NCBI GenBank assembly: GCA_030144965.1
Contig: JAMPUU010000012.1
Coordinates: forward strand, 496,001-560,000
From: Nitrospira sp. BO4
GTDB lineage: Bacteria; Nitrospirota; Nitrospiria; Nitrospirales; Nitrospiraceae
DNA: 64,000 nucleotides
Reading direction: 5' to 3'
Positions 12,861-49,742 of the stretch are shown piece by piece (within the stretch, counting starts at the first letter, position 1; every line of letters begins with the position of its first letter). Under the pieces are notes generated by a model. It ran no database searches. It was not told the DNA's origin and saw nothing but the letters and a program-made list of their open reading frames with translations. The translations under genes and the position numbers were made by a program.

Positions 12861-14077
12861 AGCGGGCCTCCCACCTGGATTTGCTCGCGGAGGGCCTCGG
12901 ACTTCAGGGCATAGCTTCCCTGAGTCACCACCTCGTCACCTTCCGTCACACCGCTCTTGACTTCGATATGATGTTGCGAAGACTCTCCGACCTTTACTTC
13001 GCGCAATTCGAACCGGCGGGGGCCTTGCACGACAAACACCACCGTCCGGCTGCCGACCTGCTGGACGGCCGCATGGGGCAGGGCCAAGACCGATTGGTCC
13101 GGCGTGAGCAACGTCACGTCGGCGAACATTTCCGGACGCAGGCGTCGGTCCGGGTTGGGAATATCCGAACGCGCCATGACCGTGCGAGTCGCCGGATCGA
13201 CCATGGCGCCCACATAACTAATGGCGCCGTGAAAGACGGCATCGGGATAGGCCGCCACACGCACCTCCACGCCAAGTCCGGTCTGCAATCGCCCGGCCTG
13301 TTGTTCCGGAAAATCCGCGCGGACCCATACGGTCGAGAGGTCCGCAACGGCGAACAGCATCTTATTGGGATCGACAACTTCTCCGACCGTCGCATTCCGT
13401 TCGACCACTTCACCGGAGAACGGCGCTCGCAGAAATACTTGCGCGACCTCGGCATGCGGCAATTTCTCAGTCCCCAGCCGCTCAATCTCCCGCTCCGTCA
13501 TGCCAAGAAGATGCAGTTTCTCTTCGGCTTCGTAGAGATCGGCTTTGGCGTTTTCGGAGTCGGCCTCGCGCCGTTGATACTCACCGGCCCCGATGGCACC
13601 TCGATCTAAGAGAGCACGAGCGCGCTCGAGCGCCTTTTCCGTCACCCGCACCGCCGTTCTGGTCTTACGATATTCCAATTGCGCCTCTCCGAACGCGGGG
13701 CTATCGAGCAGGAGCAGACGGTCGCCGGATTTCACTCGATCGCCCAGGTTGGCATACACGGCCACGATCCGCCCTGGGACACGGGCACTGAGATGGGCAA
13801 GCCGATTTTCGTTGGGGAGAATCTTTCCCGCTTGTGCCTTCAAGGACGTCCGGATGGAATGGACTCCCACTCGCTCCGTCTGAAGCTCTGTCAGCGTCGA
13901 ACTCCCTTCCTGCAATTCGATCACACCGGACTGAGCCGATGGCTTGGCCGGTGAAGCAGCCGGCTTCACGGCTTCCTCTTGTTTGGACTGACAAGCCGCT
14001 AGCGCGATCGCCATCATCACGATCGCGACCAGGTGTCGCAGAGCCTCGGATGAGAAGAGCCCCTGACTATGCGTCAT
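12857..14077 (-). CDS. czcB: RND periplasmic adaptor lipoprotein (CzcB-like)
   Basis: A 406-residue membrane-fusion protein that links the RND pump to the outer-membrane channel. A lipobox is visible (ALAACQSK, about residues 26-33), so it is probably anchored to the inner membrane. The barrel-sandwich/lipoyl half-motifs (ARVPGRIVAVYANLGDRVKSG and FLRAPFSGEVVERNATVGEVV) flank a helical hairpin of about 100 residues. The first ATG overlaps the stop of czcC by four bases. The next gene is czcA, giving a standard CBA order. Confidence 0.92.
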   Translation of the reverse strand: MTHSQGLFSSEALRHLVAIVMMAIALAACQSKQEEAVKPAASPAKPSAQSGVIELQEGSSTLTELQTERVGVHSIRTSLKAQAGKILPNENRLAHLSARVPGRIVAVYANLGDRVKSGDRLLLLDSPAFGEAQLEYRKTRTAVRVTEKALERARALLDRGAIGAGEYQRREADSENAKADLYEAEEKLHLLGMTEREIERLGTEKLPHAEVAQVFLRAPFSGEVVERNATVGEVVDPNKMLFAVADLSTVWVRADFPEQQAGRLQTGLGVEVRVAAYPDAVFHGAISYVGAMVDPATRTVMARSDIPNPDRRLRPEMFADVTLLTPDQSVLALPHAAVQQVGSRTVVFVVQGPRRFELREVKVGESSQHHIEVKSGVTEGDEVVTQGSYALKSEALREQIQVGGPL

Positions 14078-15327
14078 GGCAATCCTCCTACCGCCTGTTC
14101 CAGCTTTGCCAATGCGAGAGAGTAAGAGGCTCTGGCCTGGGCAAACTCAAGGAGCGTCTGGCGGTGGACGCGCTGTGCATCGATCACTTCGAGCAGGCTC
14201 GCTACGCCGTTCCGAAAACTGAATTGCGCGATGTCGAGGGCCTCTTTCGCTTGATAGAGAAGCCCCTTTTCAAAGACCTGGATTTGCCGCTGAGCAGTCT
14301 GCATCTCCTGGAAAGATTGGGTCACTGCCTGTTCCAACTCATACTGGATTCGGGTACGTTCAGCTTGCGCACGATGGTGCATTCCCATGGCTGTACCGAT
14401 TTCTCCTTGTCGCCGATACCAAATGGGGACCGGCACACTCAGTCCCGCCATGACGGATTCATCACCGGCTTCCCGATGGTACTGCCCGATCACCGACACG
14501 TTTGGCATGCGCGCCGCGCGTTCCTGCTCCAGTGCAAATTGGGCCTGCTCCACCGCTTTCTCCTGTCGGCGAAGCGTGGGATGGCGAGCCATGGCCTGCT
14601 CCATCAAGATGCGGAGATTGAGATCCGACCTCGGCACCTCAAACTCCCCTTGAACGACAAATTGCTCCCCGAGCGCCTTTCCCGAGATCTTGTTGAGATT
14701 GGCACGTGAAACCAGCAACGTGTTTTCCGCTCGCGCCAGATCCTTATCGGCCTTTTGCAGTTCCACCGTCGCTTTGACGAGCTCGAATTTCGGCGATTCC
14801 TTCGTCTCAACCCGGACCCGAATGAGCTCGACAAATTCCTCGACGGTCCTGAGATTCTCTTTGGCCAACTGCACATCTTGCTGGGCAAACAGCAATTGAT
14901 AGAATGCGGCCTTGACCTCCGCCGAGACGGCCACTTTGGCCTCTTCTATTCCGGCGAGCGCGCCGGAGAGTCCTGCATCAGCGGCTCGTTGCCGAGCCAT
15001 CCGCTTTCCCGGCCATTCCAGCGGCTGCTCGACCGTGATCGTCCGTTCCGCAATCGAGACGCCGGTACGCGGATCTCGAATCGAACCCCGGCCGGCCGCG
15101 CCGCTCACGGTAGGATTGAGATACGCACCGGCCGCGATCTGTCTGCCTTGACTTTCTTCCAGCGCCGCCGCTACCCCGGTCATCGCCGGGCTGTGCTTGA
15201 GCGCGAGGGCCAGGATTTCGGACAGTGAATAGGGTGTGGGACGGGAGTCGTCCGCTCTCGCGTGGCCACTCAAGGCGTGAAGGAGGCAATAGACGACGAA
15301 CGCAATGGCGATCCTATGCAGAATCAT
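14074..15327 (-). CDS. czcC: TolC-family outer-membrane efflux protein (CzcC-like)
   Basis: A 417-residue outer-membrane channel protein with signal peptide (about residues 1-25) and the two repeated long helical hairpins of TolC proteins (for example SLSEILALALKHSPAMTGV near the start and GVASLLEVIDAQRVHRQTL near the end). GAGGAG lies seven bases before the ATG. It is the first structural gene of czcCBA. That ribosome binding site can pair with the 3' end of the preceding leader ORF (see the element at 15332-15444). Confidence 0.92.
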   Translation of the reverse strand: MILHRIAIAFVVYCLLHALSGHARADDSRPTPYSLSEILALALKHSPAMTGVAAALEESQGRQIAAGAYLNPTVSGAAGRGSIRDPRTGVSIAERTITVEQPLEWPGKRMARQRAADAGLSGALAGIEEAKVAVSAEVKAAFYQLLFAQQDVQLAKENLRTVEEFVELIRVRVETKESPKFELVKATVELQKADKDLARAENTLLVSRANLNKISGKALGEQFVVQGEFEVPRSDLNLRILMEQAMARHPTLRRQEKAVEQAQFALEQERAARMPNVSVIGQYHREAGDESVMAGLSVPVPIWYRRQGEIGTAMGMHHRAQAERTRIQYELEQAVTQSFQEMQTAQRQIQVFEKGLLYQAKEALDIAQFSFRNGVASLLEVIDAQRVHRQTLLEFAQARASYSLALAKLEQAVGGLP

Positions 15328-15331
15328 AGCG

Positions 15332-15444
15332 AGTCTCCTCGATAGACACCTGCTCCCGGTGGCTCCTGAGAGACGGATCCACCATCCGGTGTCTATAACG
15401 GCACGATGTGGTGTGAACGAGTACGGGGCTTAGACGAAGAGACT
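15332..15444 (-). promoter_or_regulatory. predicted leader-RNA stem that sequesters the czcC ribosome binding site
   Basis: Read on the minus strand, AGTCTCTTCG (15444-15435) encodes the residues just after RAPP of the leader protein. It is complementary, with one G-U pair, to CGAGGAGACT (15341-15332), which contains the czcC Shine-Dalgarno GAGGAG. Nested directly inside is a second perfect 9-bp stem, ATAGACACC (15396-15388) with GGTGTCTAT (15350-15342). A ribosome halted on RAPP would cover the first strand and free the start site. The sequence complementarity is seen directly; the regulatory role is inferred. Confidence 0.5.
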
Positions 15445-15912
15445 GGGCGGCGCACGAGAGGAAATCGCATCAACAAAAGGCATCGGCGGTAAGACGATGC
15501 CAGGACTTTTCTGCATCCGGACATACTGCTGTGCACCTAGTGCTACGACAGTCGAAGAACCGAGAACCGGCACCCAAAATGGCTTGAGCGATTTTCGATC
15601 GGTTGAATCGCTCAGGAGCGACAAGCTGAACTCCGTATGCCTGTCGCCTACGTGCGAGAGCTGTGCAAACTGGCCGACACCTTCCTGTGCGGATTCTTCG
15701 ATTCGATCGACTTGCCGGTGGCCGTCGTACTCGCAGTCGAGGTCCGGCGACCACGCCATGTGAACCGTCCCGCCGTGGACATGTCCTTTTACTCCATGCT
15801 GATGATCCGCTTCGGGATGAACATGGAACAAAGGCGCTGCAAGCATCCAAAGCGATGCCCAGACGAGGACAGCCACTCGACACCAAGAATATGCTCGACG
15901 CCTTGGTCGCAT
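15430..15912 (-). CDS. His-rich small leader protein with C-terminal RAPP (CruR/DUF2946-like)
   Basis: A 160-residue protein with an N-terminal hydrophobic segment (AVLVWASLWMLAAPLF) followed by a histidine cluster (FHVHPEADHQHG then HVHGGTVH). The last residues are SSRAPPSLFV. DUF2946 proteins named CruR are copper-responsive upstream ORFs whose translation arrests at a C-terminal RAPP. This protein has the position (102 bases before czcC) and the ending, but no CxxC; the histidines may sense a different metal such as Zn, Co or Ni (inference). It heads the czcCBA transcript. Confidence 0.65.
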   Translation of the reverse strand: MRPRRRAYSWCRVAVLVWASLWMLAAPLFHVHPEADHQHGVKGHVHGGTVHMAWSPDLDCEYDGHRQVDRIEESAQEGVGQFAQLSHVGDRHTEFSLSLLSDSTDRKSLKPFWVPVLGSSTVVALGAQQYVRMQKSPGIVLPPMPFVDAISSRAPPSLFV

Positions 15913-16015
15913 TTCAGATCAGCGTAGCACGAATCTCCAGGACCATCAATCGCATGCCCTCCTCGTTCCGCCCAACGCTTCAGCAGGTTTTACCTGGTGC
16001 AAGCAAGTGTGCCGG

Positions 16016-16217
16016 CTAAAACCACATTCGCAACCCAACCACGAATCGGATCTGGCTCGGATCTCCGCCCTGTTGGCGCACCAGCGTGGCGGTTCCATCC
16101 GAAGTTTCGATTGGATGACATGCCCCTATAGATGGCATCATCAAGTCAGGTAACATTCCTTCTTGTTCCGTCACTTCGCTAACTGGATGGCTCTCCTTGA
16201 TCCACTCACGTGACGCA
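16016..16217 (-). pseudogene. possible 3' relic of an outer-membrane beta-barrel gene
   Basis: On the minus strand a frame is open from about 16217 to a TAG at 16018-16016. It ends with GGDPSQIRFVVGLRMWF, an alternating final strand ending in Phe, which is the C-terminal signature of outer-membrane barrels. No start, signal peptide or upstream coding sequence is present. It lies in the 552-base gap (15913-16464) between the divergent czc and cus operons, which otherwise holds no recognised gene. The best guess is a remnant of a lost gene; a chance ORF is possible. Confidence 0.35.
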
Positions 16218-16464
16218 ATTCGCCACGGTTACGAACTACGCAACTGTCCAGAAACGCCTCACCACTTGCATGGAAAGAAATCGACATCATCGACTGGAGG
16301 TCGTCGCAATCTCTTGGAATCATGATTCCTATTCCATGAGGCTCCTCGAATTGGCTTGCTGGCATTATTGATGCTCCCGTAGGAAGTTTGCCGGACTTGA
16401 GGGACCTGCTCGAATGAGCATAGACTGATCGCACTAACGTGGGTAAGGTCGGCCTTATTTTATA

Positions 16465-16818
16465 ATGCGTGTCCAAGCTACCATACGGTTCATGGTTCTG
16501 GTCTTTGTATTCTGCCAGATCGTCGGAATAATGTGTTCGGTGCCGGATGTATCGTTGGCTAACGACGTGGCACAGGTGGCTGAAGAAATGAACGATATGG
16601 CCTGTCCAATGGACGGGGCCATCATGTGCCCTCCCTCATTGACCGCCTCTCCTGAGCGTCAGATAAAAAACAGCGTAGTGGTGATTGATCCTGTTCCGTC
16701 TCTACTCAATCATACCGAAGCTCCCGCCGGTGTCTCTGGTGAGATGATAAGGTCTTGGAGTAGCGCGTATTCCATTGTTCCGCTCTCTATAAGCTCTTCC
16801 TCGGTTCTCCGAATCTGA
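16465..16818 (+). CDS. small secreted Met/Cys leader protein of the cus operon
   Basis: A 117-residue protein with a hydrophobic signal segment (about residues 8-26) and a Met/Cys motif near residues 43-57 (MNDMACPMDGAIMCPPS), typical of soft-metal (Cu/Ag) ligands. It ends SISSSSVLRI, not RAPP. It lies 84 bases upstream of cusC on the same strand. Just past its stop, CACCTCC is complementary to the cusC Shine-Dalgarno, so it may be a regulatory leader ORF. The start is uncertain: no good Shine-Dalgarno precedes the ATG, and a later ATG at 16492 is possible. I do not recognise a named family. Confidence 0.55.
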   Translation: MRVQATIRFMVLVFVFCQIVGIMCSVPDVSLANDVAQVAEEMNDMACPMDGAIMCPPSLTASPERQIKNSVVVIDPVPSLLNHTEAPAGVSGEMIRSWSSAYSIVPLSISSSSVLRI

Positions 16819-16823
16819 TTGCA

Positions 16824-16897
16824 CACCTCCGGTTTCGTTGTCTCCTGCTTGGCTGTTGACGCCGAGCGGCAATGATCCCATTTCCCCCCGGGAGGTG
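16824..16897 (+). promoter_or_regulatory. anti-Shine-Dalgarno pair before cusC
   Basis: CACCTCC (16824-16830), starting five bases after the leader ORF stop, is perfectly complementary to GGAGGTG (16891-16897), which is the cusC Shine-Dalgarno seven bases before its GTG. Flanking GG and CC can extend the stem with one bulged G. A ribosome on the last leader codons would cover the first arm. The pairing is seen in the sequence; the regulatory role is inferred. Confidence 0.45.
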
Positions 16898-16902
16898 CTG
16901 TT

Positions 16903-18198
16903 GTGAAACAAATTGCTGTGCTCCATCACGTGTGGGCTGGGTGGCTGATTACCCTAACGCTCCTGCTTCTCCCCTGGCCGGTCGGCGCGGCCGACGAAAC
17001 AGCCGAACCCCGCTTGGATCTGTCCGGTCTCATTCGAGAACTCGAAGCTGTAAATCCTGAAATCAAGGCGGCCCGCCAACGCTGGCAAGCCGCCCAGGCG
17101 ATCGTGCCTCAAGTGCAAACCTTGCCCGATCCGCGTCTCCAGCTTGGGTATCAGCGCATGCCGATGGTGCCTCCAGTCGTGGAAGGAGTGATGTACGGAG
17201 TCGGACAAGAGATCCCTTTTCCCGGAAAACTCAAGCTGAAGGGTGATGTGGCGCAACGTGATGCCGAACGTGTCGAGCAAGAATACATCGCCACCAGACT
17301 GAGGATGCTGGCCACGCTCAAGCAGATCTATTACGACCTGCACTTCGTCCATAAAAGCATCGACATCGTGGAAAGGAACAAGACCTTACTGATGCAATTC
17401 GAGAAAACAGCCAAAGCTCGATACAGCGTGGGACAAGCCGCGCAGCAGGACGTGTTTCGCGCCCAGGTTGAAATTTCACGCGTCCTCGATCGGCTGGCCG
17501 TTCTCGACCAGCAGAAAGAGAGCCTTCACGCGGCCATTAACCGGCTCTTGAATCGTCCACCGGACGGTGCCTTGGGCAACCCGGAAGAAGTGCACAGTAC
17601 CCTCCTGACTGTTCCTCTTCAGGAACTGAATCAGCGGGCGCTCGAATTCTCACCTGCGCTGATGGCGACGGCGAAAAGCATCGATCGTTCAGAACAGGCC
17701 GTCTCGCTTGCGCGGCGGCAGTATTATCCGGACTTCGATGTCACAGCTCTCGGCATCCGCAACGACAAGATTAATGATAACGGCTACCAGGTCATGGTGG
17801 GCATTAAGATACCGCTGTTTTACGAAACGAAACAGAAGCAAGGCGTGCATGAGGCCCTGGCGAATCTCGAAGGCGCTCGCGAAGACTTTACCGCCGCCAG
17901 ACAGGATCTTCTGTTCCAAGTCAAAGACGGCTTCGTCCAGGCGCAGCGAGCCGAGCGGCTGATCACCATCCTTCGCGATGCCATCATTCCGCAAGCGACG
18001 CTCGGTTTGCAGTCGGCTCAAGCAGGTTATGCCGTGGGTAAAGTGGATTTTCTGACGCTGCTGAACAGTCTTTTGACTCTGCAGGACAGCCAGCTCGAAT
18101 TGCACAGCGAGATGGTCAATCACGAAAAAGCACTGGCCAGGCTTGAGGCCGTTACCGGTCGAGCGTTGGATGGGTCGGAAAGGAACCCGAGATCATGA
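16903..18198 (+). CDS. cusC: TolC-family outer-membrane efflux protein (CusC-like)
   Basis: A 431-residue TolC-type channel protein starting at GTG with GGGAGG seven bases upstream. The signal peptide is about residues 1-28 (ending GAADE). Conserved features include the first helical hairpin with LIRELEAVNPEIKAARQRW, the copper-type phrase PDPRLQLGYQRMPMVPP, and QEIPFPGKLKLKGDVA. It is the first structural gene of a cusCBA operon; its stop overlaps the next ATG by four bases. Confidence 0.92.
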   Translation: MKQIAVLHHVWAGWLITLTLLLLPWPVGAADETAEPRLDLSGLIRELEAVNPEIKAARQRWQAAQAIVPQVQTLPDPRLQLGYQRMPMVPPVVEGVMYGVGQEIPFPGKLKLKGDVAQRDAERVEQEYIATRLRMLATLKQIYYDLHFVHKSIDIVERNKTLLMQFEKTAKARYSVGQAAQQDVFRAQVEISRVLDRLAVLDQQKESLHAAINRLLNRPPDGALGNPEEVHSTLLTVPLQELNQRALEFSPALMATAKSIDRSEQAVSLARRQYYPDFDVTALGIRNDKINDNGYQVMVGIKIPLFYETKQKQGVHEALANLEGAREDFTAARQDLLFQVKDGFVQAQRAERLITILRDAIIPQATLGLQSAQAGYAVGKVDFLTLLNSLLTLQDSQLELHSEMVNHEKALARLEAVTGRALDGSERNPRS

Positions 18199-19445
18199 GT
18201 GGCCGCAATCATATCCGAACAGGTTCAATCCTTATCATCGCGATAGCCGGGCTGTCGTGGCTGACATCGCAGCCAGCGATGCTCCTATCGGCGGAGTCCA
18301 AACAGGATGAAATGGCTGGAATGCAGATGCCGGGGATGAAGAAGGAAGAGAAGAAATCGGCTCCGGCGGAAAAATCTGTCCGAGCCGAGTTTGCCCGCGA
18401 ATCGCAAAGCGTTCCCGGCGTCGTGACCATTCCGCCGGAGCGGCTGCAAACGATCGGGGTGAAGTACGGGACAGTGACTCGCCTCCCTATAGAGAAAACC
18501 ATTCGCACCGTGGGCCGCGTGGCCGTGGATGAGCGGAGACTCGCCAAGGTCACGATTAAGTTTCACGGGTGGATTGAACAGCTCTTTGTCAGCGCATTGG
18601 GTGATCATGTCAAAAAAGGTCACGAGCTCTTCACCATTTATAGTCCGGATTTGGTTGCAACTCAGGAAGAGTATTTGCTTGCGCTTCAGGGACGAAAGCA
18701 ACTGGGTGAGAGTGAATTTCCAGAGGTTGCTCAAAGTTCTCAAGACTTACTGGAGGCCACACGGCACCGTCTGCACCTTTGGGATATCAGTGAGGGGCAC
18801 ATTCGAGAGTTGGAACGCACGAAGCACGTGTTAAAGACATTGCCCATTCACTCACCGATCACTGGCACGGTGATTCGCAAAGAGGTGGTGCAAGGCGCCC
18901 ACGTCGAACCAGGCCAGGAACTGTATACCATTGCTGATTTATCCCGCGTGTGGATCCTAGCGGATATTTACGAATATGAACTGTCTTTCGTAAAGGTCGG
19001 ACAAACGGCAACCGTCTCCCTTTCGTACGATCCGGGTACGACGCTTACCGCTCGTGTGGGATTCATCTATCCCACCTTGGACCCTAAGACCCGAACGGCG
19101 AAGGTGCGGTTCGAACTAGGCAATTCCAATGAGAAGCTCAAACCGGAAATGTATGCCAATGTCGAGTTGCAGGTCCATCTAGGAACCAAGCTTGCGATCC
19201 CGCAAGAAGCCATCATCGAATCGGGACAAAAGCAAATCGTCTTTCTCCATCTAGGCGGCGGGAAGCTCGAGCCGCGCCTGATCAAAACCGGAGTCAAGAC
19301 CGGCGAATGGTCAGAAGTGCTGACGGGTCTGAAAGAAGGAGAGCATATTGTCACCTCAGCTAACTTCTTAATTGACAGCGAAAGCCGGCTTAAGTCGGTC
19401 GTCGAGAATATGGGTGGAATGCCCGGCATGAAGATGAGTGAGTGA
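18195..19445 (+). CDS. cusB: RND periplasmic adaptor (CusB-like)
   Basis: A 416-residue membrane-fusion protein. After the signal/anchor segment comes a Met-rich stretch (EMAGMQMPGMKKEEKK) of the type that binds Cu(I)/Ag(I) in CusB, and the protein ends NMGGMPGMKMSE, a second Met-rich tail. The central part shows the CusB-type phrases KFHGWIEQLFVSALGDHVKKG and PIHSPITGTVIRKEVVQG. The Met-rich ends support a monovalent copper or silver substrate. It overlaps cusC by four bases, and cusA follows after six bases. Confidence 0.93.
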   Translation: MSGRNHIRTGSILIIAIAGLSWLTSQPAMLLSAESKQDEMAGMQMPGMKKEEKKSAPAEKSVRAEFARESQSVPGVVTIPPERLQTIGVKYGTVTRLPIEKTIRTVGRVAVDERRLAKVTIKFHGWIEQLFVSALGDHVKKGHELFTIYSPDLVATQEEYLLALQGRKQLGESEFPEVAQSSQDLLEATRHRLHLWDISEGHIRELERTKHVLKTLPIHSPITGTVIRKEVVQGAHVEPGQELYTIADLSRVWILADIYEYELSFVKVGQTATVSLSYDPGTTLTARVGFIYPTLDPKTRTAKVRFELGNSNEKLKPEMYANVELQVHLGTKLAIPQEAIIESGQKQIVFLHLGGGKLEPRLIKTGVKTGEWSEVLTGLKEGEHIVTSANFLIDSESRLKSVVENMGGMPGMKMSE

Positions 19446-19451
19446 CCGATC

Positions 19452-22400
19452 ATGGTTGAACGGATTATCGAATATAGTGCAAGACACCGCTTCATCGTCT
19501 TCCTGTTAGTTTTCTCGCTGTCTGCCGTGGGGCTCTGGGCTATGTGGCAGACACCCATCGACGCGCTGCCCGATATCTCCGATACACAAGTCATCGTCTA
19601 TACGACCTGGCAGGGCAGATCGCCGGATCTGGTCGAAGACCAAATTACCTATCCCATCGTCACAGCACTCCTGTCGGCTCCCAACGTGACGGTCGTCCGG
19701 GGCTTCTCCGATTTCGGCTATTCCTATGTCTACATTCTGTTTAAAGACGGCACAGACATCTATTGGGCACGGTCGCGAGTGCTTGAGCGTCTCAATCAGC
19801 TGTCAGGGCGGATGCCTGAAGGTGTCACGCCGCAGCTCGGTCCGGACGCGACCGGCGTCGGCTGGGTCTTTCAATATGCCTTGGTCGATGAATCAGGCCA
19901 GCAAGATCTCGCGTCGCTGCGCAGTTTCCAAGACTGGTATCTCCAGTATTGGCTGCGGGCCGTCGAAGGCGTTGCCGAGGTGGCGAGCATCGGAGGCTTC
20001 GTCCGGCAGTATCAGGTCAATTTGGATCCGACCAAAGTGCTGGCCTATCGGCTGTCGCTGCCTTCCATCATCGAAACGATCCGCGAAAGTAACAACGATG
20101 TCGGTGGGCGAGTCGTGGAATTTTCCGGCATCGAGTACGTCGTCCGAGGGCGTGGCTACCTGAAAAAGGCGGAAGACATCGAAAAAATCGCGGTTGGTGT
20201 CAATGAGAACGGGACGCCGATTCTCTTGCGGGATGTGGCAACGGTACGGTTAGGACCCGATATGAGGCGAGGATTGGCTGAGTTGAATGGCCAAGGGGAA
20301 GTAGCGGGAGGCATCGTCGTGATGCGGTTCGGCGAAAACGCGCTCTCGGTTATCGAACGTGTCAAGGCCAAGCTCAAGGAACTGGAGCCCTCCTTGCCGA
20401 AGGGGGTGAAGGTCGTTCCGGTCTATGACCGCAGTGACTTGATTCATGAATCCATCGCCACGGCCAATGAAAGTCTCCTGGAAGAATTGCTCGTGACCGG
20501 AGTGTTGATTGTTGCATTCTTGCTCCATGTCAGATCGGCGATCGTGCCCATACTCACGTTACCGTTGGCTGTGTTGCTCGCCTTCATTCCCATGTATCTC
20601 ATGAATATCGGTATCAACATCATGTCGCTCGGCGGCATTATCGTCGCCATAGGCGATATGGTGGATGCGGCGATTGTGATGGTGGACAACGCCCACAAGC
20701 GGTTGGAGGAGTGGGAACGGGATGGGCGAGTGGGGGAGCGTCTTCAGGTCCTCATCGATTCGGCCAAGGAAGTGGGCCCGCCGATTTTCGCGTCCGTCCT
20801 GGTGATCGCGATCTCCTTCATTCCGGTCTTTGTGCTTGAGGCGCAGGAAGGCCGGATGTTCAAGCCCCTCGCCTGGACTAACAATCTCGCCATTGCCATG
20901 TGCGCCGTCTTGGCCATCACATTGGTCCCAGCTTGCCTCCCGACGTTCATCCGGGGAAAGATCTTTCCGGAACAGAAACATCCCGTCAGTCGTTCGCTTC
21001 AGTGGCTTTATGCGCCGGTCCTGCGGCTCGCCCTCCACTACAGAAAGGCGGTCGTGGTCGGAGCCATCGGGCTGATGTTCAGCATCGTCCCGCTCTATCA
21101 ACAGATGGGATCGGAATTCATGCCGCCGCTTTACGAAGGGACGATTCTCTACATGCCGACGACCTTGCCAGGACTGTCCATCACTGAAGCGGGGCGTCTG
21201 CTCCAGATCATGGACCAGAAACTCAGTTCTTTTCCCGAAGTGGACCATGTGTTCGGCAAAGCCGGACGAGCCGAAACCTCTACCGATCCCGCACCCTTCA
21301 GCATGATCGAAGTCATTGTTGAACTGAAACCGAAAGATCGGTGGAGGCCTGGCCTCAGCTATGAGGGATTGATCGATGAGATGGATCGTGCGCTCCAGTT
21401 CCCCGGCGTGACGAACGCCTGGACCATGCCGATCAAGGCAAGGATCGACATGCTCACGACCGGCGTCCGCACCCCCGTGGGGATCAAGATCTTCGGACCA
21501 GACCTGAGGCAAATCGAAGAGATCGGGAAACATTTGGAAATGGTCTTGAAGGATGTGCCCGGCACCAGGAGCGCCTATGCGGAACGAGTGTCCGGCGGGT
21601 ACTTCCTCGATTTCGATATCAATCGCGAGGAGATTGCCCGCTACGGACTGAAACTCATGGACGTCGGCAGGGTTATCGAATCGGCCATCGGGGGGGAGAA
21701 CATCGCGACGACGATCGAAGGTCGTGAGCGCTACCCGATCAATGTGCGCTATCTGCGGGAATTGCGGGACGATCCGCAGAAACTCCAACGAGTCATCGTG
21801 GATACGCCGACCGGTGCCCAAGTACCGCTGGCTCAACTCGCGACGCTGCGATTCACCACCGGGCCACCTATGATCCGTGATGAAAACGGCTTGCTCGCCG
21901 GCTATGTGTTTCTCGATATGACAGGCCGTGATATCGGGAGCTATGTGGAGGATCTCAAGAAGGCCGTGGCGGAAAAGGTTCAGCTGCCGACTGGTTATAC
22001 CCTCGTCTGGTCCGGTCAATACGAATTCATGCAGCGGGTGAAGGAACGGCTGAAATTGGTTGTGCCGCTGACGCTCGTGATCATCTTTGTCACATTTTAC
22101 TTCTCCTTCGAGTCGGTGGCGAAAACCGTCATGGTGATGGTGGGGGTGCCGCTCTCATTAGTCGGGGCCGTCTGGTACCTCTCGATCCTTGGCTACAACA
22201 TGAGCATTGCCGTGTGGGTGGGACTGATCACTGTTGTGGGGACCGCGGCGGAAACCAGCGCGGTCATGCTGGCCTATTTGGATGAAGCCTGCGCTCGGCG
22301 CAAGGCGGCGGGCGGGCTCACGACACTACAAGATCTGATCGATACCGTTCAGCTAGGCGCAGTCGAGCGCATCAGGCCCATGGCGATGATCGGCTTGGTC

Positions 22401-22619
22401 GATGTCATCGGCTTGATCCCGGTGATGTGGGCCACGGGAACCGGCGCAGATGTGATGAAACGCATTGCCGCTCCACAGGTCGGGGGGGTGTTCTCCGCAA
22501 TGGTCCTGACGTTGTTTGTGATTCCGCCCATCTACGTCATGTGGCGGTGGTGGAGCGAGAGCAAGCGAGAACACATAAGGGAGACGAGACAAGAAGCAAG
22601 TGGAGCATGGAACCCATGA
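19452..22619 (+). CDS. cusA: CusA-type heavy-metal efflux RND transporter
   Basis: A 1055-residue RND pump, full length for the HME family. The helix-4 proton-relay region near residues 402-418 reads GDMVDAAIVMVDNAHK, close to the form usual for Cu(I)/Ag(I) pumps. Periplasmic porter subdomains contain QYQVNLDPTKVLAYRLSL and the usual LGPDATGVGWVFQYAL. It forms the inner-membrane part of the CusCBA complex. Its 3' end overlaps a 40-codon ORF in another frame (22600-22722) that could encode a single-pass membrane peptide. Confidence 0.94.
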   Translation: MVERIIEYSARHRFIVFLLVFSLSAVGLWAMWQTPIDALPDISDTQVIVYTTWQGRSPDLVEDQITYPIVTALLSAPNVTVVRGFSDFGYSYVYILFKDGTDIYWARSRVLERLNQLSGRMPEGVTPQLGPDATGVGWVFQYALVDESGQQDLASLRSFQDWYLQYWLRAVEGVAEVASIGGFVRQYQVNLDPTKVLAYRLSLPSIIETIRESNNDVGGRVVEFSGIEYVVRGRGYLKKAEDIEKIAVGVNENGTPILLRDVATVRLGPDMRRGLAELNGQGEVAGGIVVMRFGENALSVIERVKAKLKELEPSLPKGVKVVPVYDRSDLIHESIATANESLLEELLVTGVLIVAFLLHVRSAIVPILTLPLAVLLAFIPMYLMNIGINIMSLGGIIVAIGDMVDAAIVMVDNAHKRLEEWERDGRVGERLQVLIDSAKEVGPPIFASVLVIAISFIPVFVLEAQEGRMFKPLAWTNNLAIAMCAVLAITLVPACLPTFIRGKIFPEQKHPVSRSLQWLYAPVLRLALHYRKAVVVGAIGLMFSIVPLYQQMGSEFMPPLYEGTILYMPTTLPGLSITEAGRLLQIMDQKLSSFPEVDHVFGKAGRAETSTDPAPFSMIEVIVELKPKDRWRPGLSYEGLIDEMDRALQFPGVTNAWTMPIKARIDMLTTGVRTPVGIKIFGPDLRQIEEIGKHLEMVLKDVPGTRSAYAERVSGGYFLDFDINREEIARYGLKLMDVGRVIESAIGGENIATTIEGRERYPINVRYLRELRDDPQKLQRVIVDTPTGAQVPLAQLATLRFTTGPPMIRDENGLLAGYVFLDMTGRDIGSYVEDLKKAVAEKVQLPTGYTLVWSGQYEFMQRVKERLKLVVPLTLVIIFVTFYFSFESVAKTVMVMVGVPLSLVGAVWYLSILGYNMSIAVWVGLITVVGTAAETSAVMLAYLDEACARRKAAGGLTTLQDLIDTVQLGAVERIRPMAMIGLVDVIGLIPVMWATGTGADVMKRIAAPQVGGVFSAMVLTLFVIPPIYVMWRWWSESKREHIRETRQEASGAWNP

Positions 22620-45480: not shown

Positions 45481-45540
45481 CTCTCGTACCGGGGAGCGCT
45501 GCCGGTTTCCTTGCATGAGTTATGTCACACGGTATGAGAG
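45481..45540 (-). promoter_or_regulatory. leader-RNA pairing before the propeller lipoprotein gene
   Basis: On the minus strand CTCTCATACCG (45540-45530), which encodes the residues just after RGPP of the leader protein, pairs in 10 of 11 positions with CGGTACGAGAG (45491-45481) in the untranslated leader, about 30 bases before the lipoprotein ATG. It does not cover the Shine-Dalgarno itself. The complementarity is seen in the sequence; the regulatory role is inferred by analogy with the czcC leader. Confidence 0.35.
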
Positions 45541-45888
45541 TGGTGGCCCTCGAGGAACGATCTCCGCATGAAACAGACCGACAAGCAGGGTATCGGCGCC
45601 GAGATTCCAGACTTGCCCGATGAGAACATCGATCGAGGCTCCGCCCCGACCGTTGGAACCTTCGGCATCGATGCCGCCACAGTGCCAAATGCAATGACTC
45701 GCGCCATGATGGGTGCTCGGCGTTTGTCCTTGCGGACAATGCGGCGTGGTCCATTGCGCCGTGAGGTTCCCTTGTGTAACGGACAGAGAACCGGCGAGCC
45801 AAAGGGCGATACAGCAGCCCGCCATCGCGCGAACGAACAACGTTCTATGCCTTACACTCCACATTCGTGATCCACAATCCATCATCAT
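45520..45888 (-). CDS. small secreted leader protein, CxWxC and RGPP (CruR-like)
   Basis: A protein of about 122 residues with a hydrophobic export segment (AMAGCCIALWLAGSLSV), a His/Cys sensor stretch (STHHGASHCIWHCGG, after an earlier HCPQGQ) and the ending VPRGPPLSYRVT. It is related by motif to the leaders at 47083 and 49222 and lies directly before the propeller lipoprotein gene. DUF2946/CruR proteins have CxxC and RAPP; here the spacing is CxWxC. The start is one of three consecutive ATGs (45888-45880) or a later Met; no good Shine-Dalgarno is seen. Confidence 0.6.
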   Translation of the reverse strand: MMMDCGSRMWSVRHRTLFVRAMAGCCIALWLAGSLSVTQGNLTAQWTTPHCPQGQTPSTHHGASHCIWHCGGIDAEGSNGRGGASIDVLIGQVWNLGADTLLVGLFHAEIVPRGPPLSYRVT

Positions 45889-45910
45889 CCGATCGCTGCC
45901 CTGTCTTCCC

Positions 45911-46984
45911 CTAGGACGACCCGCCAAAGAGTTGAAATGACTTGGTCATCCCAAAGATGTAGCTGATCTGTTGTTCCAGATTGCCGTTGAAATCCCGGTG
46001 AATAGGGATTTGGGCGATGAAATAGAACGAGGCAAAGTTAAATGCATTCAACATAATTCCCGGTGAATACGCGACATAGGTCGAGCCGGTGGTCGGTACC
46101 GCCCGAAACTTGATGGCTGGATCGAGCAAGATCGCCGAGCCGGTCCCTGGATTGAACTGGAAAAGCGCCGCGTCCATGGCATCGTTCTGCATATATCGAA
46201 AATTGAACTGCTGCATCAGCACCAGCCAGGGAGTCTGCTCGAGGGGGATGATATTGACCCCGAGGCTCGCGTTCACTTCATCGCCGAACTGATAGCCGTC
46301 GCTGTTTTTGAACGTGTGCCGATAACTTGCCGAGGCAAATTGATTGACCCGATGGGGAATCAGCTCATACGTTTGATAGATCATCGGGATCACACCGAAG
46401 TTTCCCCGTCCGATTTGAAGCGTCGATTCGGCCAAGGTGGTTCCCTGAGCAAACCGGCCGTAGCTACCCGTCGGAAAATCGACACCCACTCCCAAGACGA
46501 CCATGCTGCGAAGAGTGGGCAACACGTTGTACTTCAGCGTCGCGCGAATATCGCCGAGACCTCGCTCGCTGTAGGGAACCGGCGTGAGGCCGCCGATCTG
46601 CGCATTTGACTCTACATGCTTGTATGGGATGGCCACTTGGATGCCGAGACGATCCGTCAGTCCGTAGTTGAGATCAAGGGTCGCGGTGCGGGTCGTGGTC
46701 TCGATTCTGTTAACGTTCAAATTTGCTAACGTGAGAGTCCGTTCACCCTGATTGGCAAAGGGGATGCGCCCGCCATCACCCGGTGCGGCCTCCATCGGCG
46801 TATAGTTGTAGATGGCATTGATGGTCAACAGACCTTTCATCGGCACTTGCTGTTGAGAGCCGATGACCACAAAGCAACTGACGGACCCACAGGACGCCGC
46901 GACGTGGGAAGGCCAGAGCATCGAGACGGTCATTGCGACGACACCACAGACTGCAAAGGCACAGCACCAGAGCTTGCGCGTCAT
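45911..46984 (-). CDS. outer-membrane beta-barrel protein, paralogue 2
   Basis: A 357-residue exported protein. Right after the signal peptide (about residues 1-30) comes SCGSVSCFVVIGSQQQV, a two-Cys motif shared with the paralogue at 47986. The rest is a barrel of about 12 to 14 strands: TATLDLNYGLTDRLGIQVAI, RATLKYNVLPTLRSMVVLGV, NQFASASYRHTF. This resembles transporter/phenol-degradation meta-pathway-type barrels. It has no TonB plug domain. Its leader ORF at 47083 ends 98 bases upstream. A surface channel for a metal-related ligand is inference. Confidence 0.75.
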   Translation of the reverse strand: MTRKLWCCAFAVCGVVAMTVSMLWPSHVAASCGSVSCFVVIGSQQQVPMKGLLTINAIYNYTPMEAAPGDGGRIPFANQGERTLTLANLNVNRIETTTRTATLDLNYGLTDRLGIQVAIPYKHVESNAQIGGLTPVPYSERGLGDIRATLKYNVLPTLRSMVVLGVGVDFPTGSYGRFAQGTTLAESTLQIGRGNFGVIPMIYQTYELIPHRVNQFASASYRHTFKNSDGYQFGDEVNASLGVNIIPLEQTPWLVLMQQFNFRYMQNDAMDAALFQFNPGTGSAILLDPAIKFRAVPTTGSTYVAYSPGIMLNAFNFASFYFIAQIPIHRDFNGNLEQQISYIFGMTKSFQLFGGSS

Positions 46985-46995
46985 GATTCCACGAT

Positions 46996-47094
46996 CTTTC
47001 TGTTTGTCATACGATAGAATCCGCGCATCGGATCCCACCGTAAGACAGGGTTGTTAAGAAAAAGGTCTGCCGACTATGGACGCTAGACAGAAAG
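46996..47094 (-). promoter_or_regulatory. leader-RNA pairing before barrel paralogue 2
   Basis: On the minus strand CTTTCTGT (47094-47087), the codons right after RGPP of the leader protein, is perfectly complementary to ACAGAAAG (47003-46996), which lies 12 to 19 bases before the ATG of the barrel gene. The pairing would cover the start region unless a ribosome is held at RGPP. The complementarity is seen in the sequence; the function is inferred. Confidence 0.4.
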
Positions 47095-47391
47095 GCTGGG
47101 AGGCCCGCGGAAGAAGTACGAGAGGGAGATCACACTGAGGACTGCGTTGAAGGGAGGAATGCTTACCCATTCAAGAAGTTGAAGCCCTGATGTGAACTGC
47201 ACGACGGACGATTCGATCCCCACGCCGCCGGCGCACAGCCACGCACAGATGCCGGTGGAATGAGTTGCCGCCTGATGGCCGGCATGGTGTTCGGCATGGC
47301 TGACACTCGGTGCAGCCATGAGCCCGTTCATCAATACGATGACGAGCAGCAATGCCCAGACTAATACCGGCTGTTTTACGGTCACCGTCAT
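47083..47391 (-). CDS. small secreted leader protein, CxWxC and RGPP (CruR-like)
   Basis: A 102-residue protein with signal peptide (about residues 8-28), a His-rich stretch leading into the Cys motif (AEHHAGHQAATHSTGICAW, then LCAGG) and the C-terminus YFFRGPPSLSV. It starts 10 bases after the tlpA-like stop and ends 98 bases before barrel paralogue 2. The pattern is very close to the leader at 49222. By analogy with CruR it would sense copper while being made and arrest on its RGPP. Confidence 0.65.
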   Translation of the reverse strand: MTVTVKQPVLVWALLLVIVLMNGLMAAPSVSHAEHHAGHQAATHSTGICAWLCAGGVGIESSVVQFTSGLQLLEWVSIPPFNAVLSVISLSYFFRGPPSLSV

Positions 47392-49221: not shown

Positions 49222-49527
49222 TTATGTGCTGAAGGATGGAGGAGCGCGGCTGGAGAAAATGGGAGACGGTTCAGAAATCGAATCGTTTGAATGAAGAATT
49301 GGAATGAGCGCGACGGGGCCGTATTCGGTCGGAATCAGGAACACCTCGGTATCGAGCACGGTGCCGGCAGCACACATCCACGAGCAAAGCACGGTTCCGT
49401 GCGTGGCTGTTTGATGCTGAGCGTGGTGTCCGGCATGTTCCGCGGATTGAGCTTGAGCCAATCCGCCGACGGCGAGGACACAGAGGACAAGTGAAATTGA
49501 AAGAAACTTACGGAGAGCGTTATTCAT
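49222..49527 (-). CDS. small secreted leader protein, CxWxC and RAPP (CruR-like)
   Basis: A protein of about 101 residues (from ATG 49527; GTG 49536 is possible) with signal peptide, the sensor stretch HAGHHAQHQTATHG followed by TVLCSWMCAAG, and the ending SSRAPPSFST. It is the first gene of the minus-strand envelope cluster and is divergent from secA. Unlike the other leaders, I find no strong pairing between its last codons and the ribosome site of the next gene; only CCTCC within the RAPP codons matches the GGGGG there. Confidence 0.65.
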   Translation of the reverse strand: MNNALRKFLSISLVLCVLAVGGLAQAQSAEHAGHHAQHQTATHGTVLCSWMCAAGTVLDTEVFLIPTEYGPVALIPILHSNDSISEPSPIFSSRAPPSFST

Positions 49528-49742
49528 CGAAGGCACTACTCACATAAACCCAGGTACAACTGAACCGCCAAATACCACTGACACAGTAACTCAAATATTA
49601 GGTGACTAGGACAATATCTGTCAAGCCGCCGTTATGCCACAGACAGTCGAGTAGGATTCATTGGAGAGATGCTGTATACTGCCAACCCTATTTCTATGGT
49701 AGGAATCCACTCTCACTAAAGGGCGACACGTATCTTTATCCT

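Follow-up and report, generated by a model that had tools for sequence, protein, structure and literature searches.

The analysed window, a stretch of 64,000 nucleotides from Nitrospira sp. BO4, contained a short leader ORF on the forward strand (16465..16818) immediately before genes for a metal efflux system. The leader begins with ATG, encodes 117 amino acids (MRVQATIRFMVLVFVFCQIVGIMCSVPDVSLANDVAQVAEEMNDMACPMDGAIMCPPSLTASPERQIKNSVVVIDPVPSLLNHTEAPAGVSGEMIRSWSSAYSIVPLSISSSSVLRI) and ends in SSSSVLRI-TGA. It is followed on the same strand by cusC (16903..18198), coding an outer membrane efflux protein or OEP (PF02321, E 8.7e-48), cusB (18195..19445), coding a periplasmic adaptor of the CusB/CzcB type (TIGR00999 and CusB profiles), and cusA (19452..22619), coding a heavy-metal RND pump of the CusA/CzcA family (TIGR00914 above its cut-off). 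An OEP, an adaptor and a CusA/CzcA pump in this order mark a heavy-metal RND operon, for which the metal specificity is putative.

The leader protein is composed of a hydrophobic export-like signal with a CQxxGxxC motif (16489..16557), a sensor-like segment MACPMDGAIMCPPS (16597..16638) with a CPMDGxxMCPPS site resembling metal ligands, a variable linker, and the last 12 codons up to the stop codon, PLSISSSSVLRI (16780..16815), which are the candidate arrest sequence. The stop codon TGA (16816-16818) is followed by a T, and this four-base context (16816..16819) is considered below. Hydropathy analysis gave one strong hydrophobic stretch with its maximum at residues 9-24, a putative Sec signal peptide. 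The C, Q, G and C of the N-terminal motif were invariant in the alignment of homologues, as were the C-P-M and M-C-P of the sensor-like segment. A preliminary description of this DNA had reported Met/Cys ligands and an ending in SSSSVLRI rather than RxPP, and both are present in the ORF. Profile searches with the leader and its homologues gave no Pfam or NCBIfam family match for the window leader, and no relative was found among the solved structures searched. The PF11162 (DUF2946) profile had no match to the window leader at E<=10 or to 23 homologues at E<=1, and a search of the same genome with it gave weak matches elsewhere only. A promoter scan did not report the TATAAT that overlaps the leader ATG. 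A TTGAC-containing stretch recurs upstream of most of the leaders ending in VLRI (L064, L078 and L094, for example) and may be the -35 region of a promoter that they share.

Homologues with strong scores were found in 27 of the 147 genomes of the first set searched and more were found in further genera of the same family, the sources including Nitrospira records and among them N. moscoviensis. All VLRI homologues found were from the Nitrospiraceae and counts of these leaders are therefore not independent of one another. Fifty-two distinct leaders carried the CPM..MC site and fifty of these ended in VLRI-stop. The other two, a frameshifted copy and a copy without a stop codon, were both located beside a broken or truncated cusC, and beside a third broken cusC the leader was shortened at its N-terminus, such that the leader was damaged in each of the three genomes with a broken or truncated cusC. 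The preliminary description had suggested a search for leaders with this ending before cusC genes, and most VLRI leaders do precede cusC. Viewed from the target gene, a leader was directly upstream in 11 of 12 cusC matches within the genus (at least 73% identity, near full length), and a cusC orthologue in one genome (G013) was without a leader. The genome of the window itself has a second intact leader copy before another cusC (53% identity) plus a scrambled remnant. Viral contigs contained no leader relatives. On plasmids the VLRI query had a single weak match (E 0.8), to a Streptomyces mvaD gene, and a query ending in FRI, a related ending described below, had no match. A single scan of a sequence collection yielded relatives from Nitrospira only.

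Conservation was concentrated at the end of the protein. The preliminary reading depended on a conserved C-terminus, and V, L, R and I were each present in 50 of 50 distinct leaders, as was a Ser at position -10 from the end, with intact homologues ending exactly in SVLRI or PVLRI before the stop. The codons used for these four residues varied synonymously (GTC, GTT or GTG; CTC, CTT or CTG; CGA, CGG, AGG or CGC; ATC or ATT), and selection therefore acts on the peptide. The ratio pN/pS was 0.22 for the last 12 codons and 0.23 for the Cys/Met segment, while it was 0.71 for the linker. Despite this drift in the linker, the distance from the last Cys to the C-terminus was nearly fixed at 62, 63, 64 and 65 residues in 3, 41, 5 and 1 of the 50 leaders, respectively. 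The stop codon TAG was used in 0 of 78 leaders versus 43 of 255 background ORFs, and the base after the stop was T in 57 of 57 VLRI leaders versus 49 of 255 in the background, two counts that are weakened by the relatedness of the sequences. PP was absent from the last 15 residues of all 57 VLRI leaders. Conservation of this kind argues strongly that the leader is functional. The general form of the ending, S-[VTI]-[FL]-R-I, may resemble SIFVI, the arrest segment of ErmCL. No relevant paper came up in a literature search on the endings SVLRI, LSTFRI and FSVFLN.

The spacer of 84 nt between the leader and cusC has the features of an RNA switch. TTGCA separates the TGA from CACCTCC (16824..16830), a candidate anti-Shine-Dalgarno (anti-SD) which is the perfect complement of the cusC Shine-Dalgarno (SD) GGAGGTG (16891..16897), located 5 nt before the GTG start at 16903. 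This pairing, as well as its position five bases past the stop, had been described beforehand and is exact to the base. The two strands would form a helix, P1, that encloses an inner hairpin, P2 (16835..16875), which is an addition to the preliminary description, as are the second target class and the sister leaders with other endings described below. The window has 17 co-directional gene pairs separated by 40-200 nt, and the post-stop/SD duplex was strongest for the leader and cusC (-17.2 kcal/mol, z -2.2). In thirty-six cusC-type spacers the best anti-SD register began at +5 after the stop in 34 and at +4 in two, and at least 8 of 9 P1 pairs were formed in 27 of them (9/9 in 17 and 8/9 in 10). 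In the clade of the Nitrospira defluvii type the strand reads CACCGCC and is mismatched to the SD at one position. Pairing was found in 95.6% of P1 cells and 89.7% of P2 cells, and the combined pairing fell from 92% to 39-52% when the partners were slid against each other. Cells with changes on both sides numbered 19 in P1 and P2 together versus 6.6 after shuffling, and none of 500 shuffles reached 19. Nearly all of this covariation was in P2, where 6 of 10 pairs had changed on both sides, whereas the P1 core hardly covaries because the SD is fixed. Arm swaps between sequences at the flanking P1 pairs 8-9 were not significant (303 of 5000 permutations), and single-sequence folding was modest in some species. 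The case for P1 is based on conservation, on position and on a sister family with a different strand pair. No match was found for 4227 Rfam families in positions 15300-17100 of the window, and no intrinsic terminator was found. In toe-print geometry, a ribosome with its P site on a codon reaches about 15 nt downstream. A P site on the last codon (16813-16815) would reach to about 16828 and would therefore overlap the 5' strand of P1, so that the geometry of the earlier proposal, in which a ribosome on the last codon or the stop covers the anti-SD, holds.

A few cases of copper control through leaders acting as nascent exported chains are known, and they are tied to proline-rich arrest motifs. 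In the cutFOG operon of Rhodobacter capsulatus, Cu on the exported nascent chain of CutF prolongs a stalling-like state, which opens a stem-loop over the cutO SD (Ozturk et al. 2023, PMC9973294). From sequence and comparative evidence it is likely that the region 16465-16897 is a translational switch for cusCBA of the same type, a nascent metal sensor whose arrest at the stop codon opens cusC. The leader would be a short exported protein that is read out during its own synthesis, with the N-terminus taking the nascent chain to the Sec translocon. A ribosome at the stop codon is separated from the Cys/Met site by 62-65 residues, roughly what the ribosomal tunnel and the translocon together would span, and the site may therefore just be emerging in the periplasm. 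The invariant ending ISxSSSVLRI-stop would arrest the ribosome at termination. By analogy with CutF this arrest would last longer with metal bound, Cu(I) or Ag(I) being the likeliest, because the chain could then not be pulled through. A ribosome held on the stop codon would cover CACCTCC such that P1 could not form, GGAGGTG would be free and cusC would be translated. With no metal bound the peptide would be released, P1 would close around P2 and cusC would be shut. The comparison establishes that the peptide ending is conserved, that the Cys-to-stop spacing is fixed, that the anti-SD is conserved in position and pairing, that P2 covaries and that metal-efflux or oxidase genes are present downstream. 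We infer the arrest and the sign of the response, and gene context together with the ligand residues points to copper as the probable signal.

Plain translational coupling would be a simpler arrangement, in which any ribosome finishing the leader briefly opens P1 and the output of cusC follows leader translation, with no arrest, no sensing and only a minor role for the leader as a secreted protein. An anti-SD 5 nt past the stop and a short spacer would suffice for this. Coupling does not explain why VLRI is conserved to the residue while its codons are free, why the Cys-to-stop spacing is fixed across a drifting linker, why TAG stops are absent or why the peptide ending is kept where the anti-SD has been lost, and we regard it as unlikely.

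The loss of the anti-SD was seen in a second class of targets. Nine VLRI leaders (L007, L009, L013, L014, L025, L035, L037, L038 and L093) are followed by a small membrane protein (MMGMRWTNWLGF...) and then, where the sequence was readable, by a multicopper-oxidase-like protein, recognised by eye from sequence rather than by family search. The VLRI ending was kept in these multicopper oxidase (MCO) type leaders and was still more constrained, with a pN/pS of 0.08. The anti-SD was weak or lost and there was no start codon after the SD-like site; GGAGGTGTCATTACACC was kept in most of these loci, where GGTGT/ACACC forms an inverted repeat without a start codon. Two genomes had tandem leaders, the first followed by a short cusC remnant only and the second being of the MCO type. 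The reading of the post-stop strand as a mask over the SD thus stands for the cusC-type loci, where the anti-SD is conserved, and does not extend to every homologue, since in the MCO branch the anti-SD has for the most part disappeared. The retention of the peptide and not the anti-SD in this branch would fit attenuation by Rho, in which the main effect of a stalled ribosome is to conceal a Rho site and not to free the SD, as happens with CruR (PMC9426467) and TnaC (PMC8429421). This could be the sole mechanism in the MCO branch and is in keeping with the absence of a detected intrinsic terminator. It would not need P1, which masks the SD and is conserved at cusC-type loci, and as the general explanation it seems improbable, somewhat more so than coupling.

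In other Nitrospirota genera cusC homologues were preceded by leaders of the same plan with different endings. These included SPSIQVLRI-stop (L114 and L115), LSTFRI-stop, LSVFRI-stop or LSIFRM-stop at seven loci (FRI leaders), FLLFSSLLI-stop, and PLLFLLFSVFLN-stop and its variants in about a dozen, summarised as SVFLN-stop (FLN leaders). A penultimate Arg was present in every VLRI and FRI leader, and PP was found within the last 15 residues of 6 of the 7 FRI leaders. In all of the sister leaders the hydrophobic N-terminus contained two Cys spaced by about 7 residues, and a further Cys was placed 60-65 residues before the C-terminus; their linkers and endings were unrelated. When the profiles of the VLRI and FLN families were compared, only weak similarity (probability 16%) was seen, in the N-terminal half, and their common descent is therefore likely and not proved. 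Some FLN leaders stand before multicopper oxidases, as judged by eye. Three FLN leaders ending in FSVLLN-stop or FSSLLN-stop (L211, L212 and L213) were located upstream of ORFs that, again by eye, resemble ECF sigma factors.

At the cusC-type FLN loci the post-stop sequence TTTCCCTAACA pairs with TGTTAGGGGG, which includes the SD, and the duplex was -20.5 kcal/mol with its own SD arms versus -7.6 with the arms of other families. The FRI leaders L130, L139 and L144 had pairs of their own (TTCCCTT/AAGGGAG and TCTCTTC/GAAGAGG), and 3 of the 7 FRI leaders (L131-L133) had no convincing anti-SD. No other result argues as strongly that the post-stop strand exists to mask the SD as does the change of both strands in different branches. 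The same coupling of a different ending with a different anti-SD in a sister family is hard to reconcile with the idea that the leader is a periplasmic copper-binding protein in its own right (a chaperone or a replacement for CusF), with a C-terminus kept for binding CusC or CusB or for stability and with an RNA hairpin that is incidental. The export-like N-terminus, the Cys/Met motif and the shared operon with cusCBA suit such a protein; a conserved ending exactly at the stop, a linker almost unconstrained in sequence and yet fixed in length, and the lack of a relative among solved structures do not, and this explanation is very unlikely. A metal-responsive riboswitch in the spacer, a pure RNA element to which the ORF is irrelevant, is least credible of all, since it would fit the conserved and covarying P1/P2 structure but not the very variable P2 sequence, a peptide ending that is invariant at the protein level with synonymous change, or the absence of an Rfam match.

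The proposed switch has several points of comparison with characterised leaders, of which CutF is the closest. Both would be short Sec-exported nascent Cu sensors with a Cys site and a conserved C-terminal ending, export and sensing being putative for the VLRI leader, and in both a stem-loop right after the ORF masks the SD of the next gene, as the fold, pairing and covariation indicate for the cusC-type loci. The targets of CutF include a multicopper oxidase, and CusC-type OEPs are targets for CutF-like proteins. At 117 amino acids with cusC 84 nt downstream on the same strand, the VLRI leader falls within the CutF-like filters of under 150 amino acids and a next gene within 1000 nt. A further filter for CutF-like proteins required PP among the final 15 residues (PMC9973294). 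CutF, as described, ends in a proline-rich motif, whereas the VLRI motif ends at the stop codon without PP. The claim of the preliminary description that this is an independent copper-leader solution was too strong, as the architecture is that of CutF and the relatives in Nitrospirota have a range of endings on one plan.

CruR (DUF2946, PF11162) of Bordetella pertussis has a CXXC and a RAPP motif at a 45-residue spacing and acts through Rho, with Cu relieving the stall (PMC9426467). It is likewise an upstream ORF that senses metal, has an arrest-type C-terminus and precedes metal-homeostasis genes, features that would be shared by the VLRI leader. It is more distant than CutF, as the VLRI leader has CPMDGxxMC and SVLRI-stop in place of CXXC and RAPP and is not matched by PF11162. 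CzcI of Cupriavidus metallidurans, a proposed metal-sensing regulator cited in PMC9973294, is similar by description in being a small protein linked to metals that is encoded before an RND operon and, as far as that description goes, without a C-terminal proline motif. In the TnaC peptide of E. coli the terminal Arg23-Pro24 block RF2, with a clash expected between the penultimate Arg23 and the catalytic loop of that factor (PMC8429421). The penultimate Arg is shared with TnaC, and candidate features in common are arrest at the stop codon and a block of RF2, which reads UGA and UAA. TnaC differs in being a cytosolic peptide of 24 amino acids that senses tryptophan with a Rho readout, and has no sequence relation to the VLRI leader. 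We favour termination at the stop codon as the arrest point because the ending at the stop, the penultimate Arg, the lack of TAG and the T after the stop all recall TnaC. The RAPP/RGPP peptides are also leaders encoded before metal genes with an arrest site at the C-terminus, and in these the ribosome is arrested at the final Pro codons of RxPP, which are sense codons (PMC12992588). By working principle the VLRI leader belongs with the nascent-chain metal-sensor leaders, apart from DUF2946 and outside the published CutF-like definition.

It is possible, and we advance this with less than even confidence, that the Nitrospirota have a proline-free class of metal-sensing leaders that arrest at the stop codon by blocking RF2. 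In this class a Cys-to-stop spacing of 60-65 residues would bring the sensor to the mouth of the translocon on the periplasmic side, the endings SVLRI-stop, STFRI-stop and SVFLN-stop would have diversified, and in several branches the post-stop anti-SD would have changed together with its SD. The copper-leader principle is already known from CutF and CruR, and the proline-free ending is what would be new. If correct, nascent-leader copper control extends to Nitrospira, nitrifiers to which the supply and the toxicity of copper are important, and the different ending probably entails a different arrest point, at termination and not during elongation. The sister leaders with their different endings would be a natural set of candidate arrest sequences. 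A fixed sensor-to-stop spacing would also be a simple rule for where the metal is read, the distance from the last Cys being 62-65 residues when measured to the stop of VLRI leaders and 41-42 residues when measured to RxPP in three of the four RxPP-ending ORFs of the window.

Elsewhere in the same genome a leader-like ORF (L160, G000:C24:12323-12595) ends in SRAPPRL and matched DUF2946 weakly, with an E of 0.023 that did not reach the cut-off. Within the window, a His-rich ORF of 160 amino acids on the reverse strand (15430-15912) looks exported, has no Pfam match and ends in ISSRAPPSLFV. It is of the RxPP type, faces away from the VLRI leader and is located directly before a divergent RND operon whose first gene is OEP-like (14074-15327, reverse strand). 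Three further short ORFs on the reverse strand (45520-45927, 47083-47391 and 49222-49536) end in RGPP or RAPP plus 4-6 residues, with a CxxxC 41-42 residues before the RxPP. Each is followed closely by a larger ORF in the same orientation, and together with the 160-residue ORF they make a cluster of RxPP leaders in this one window.
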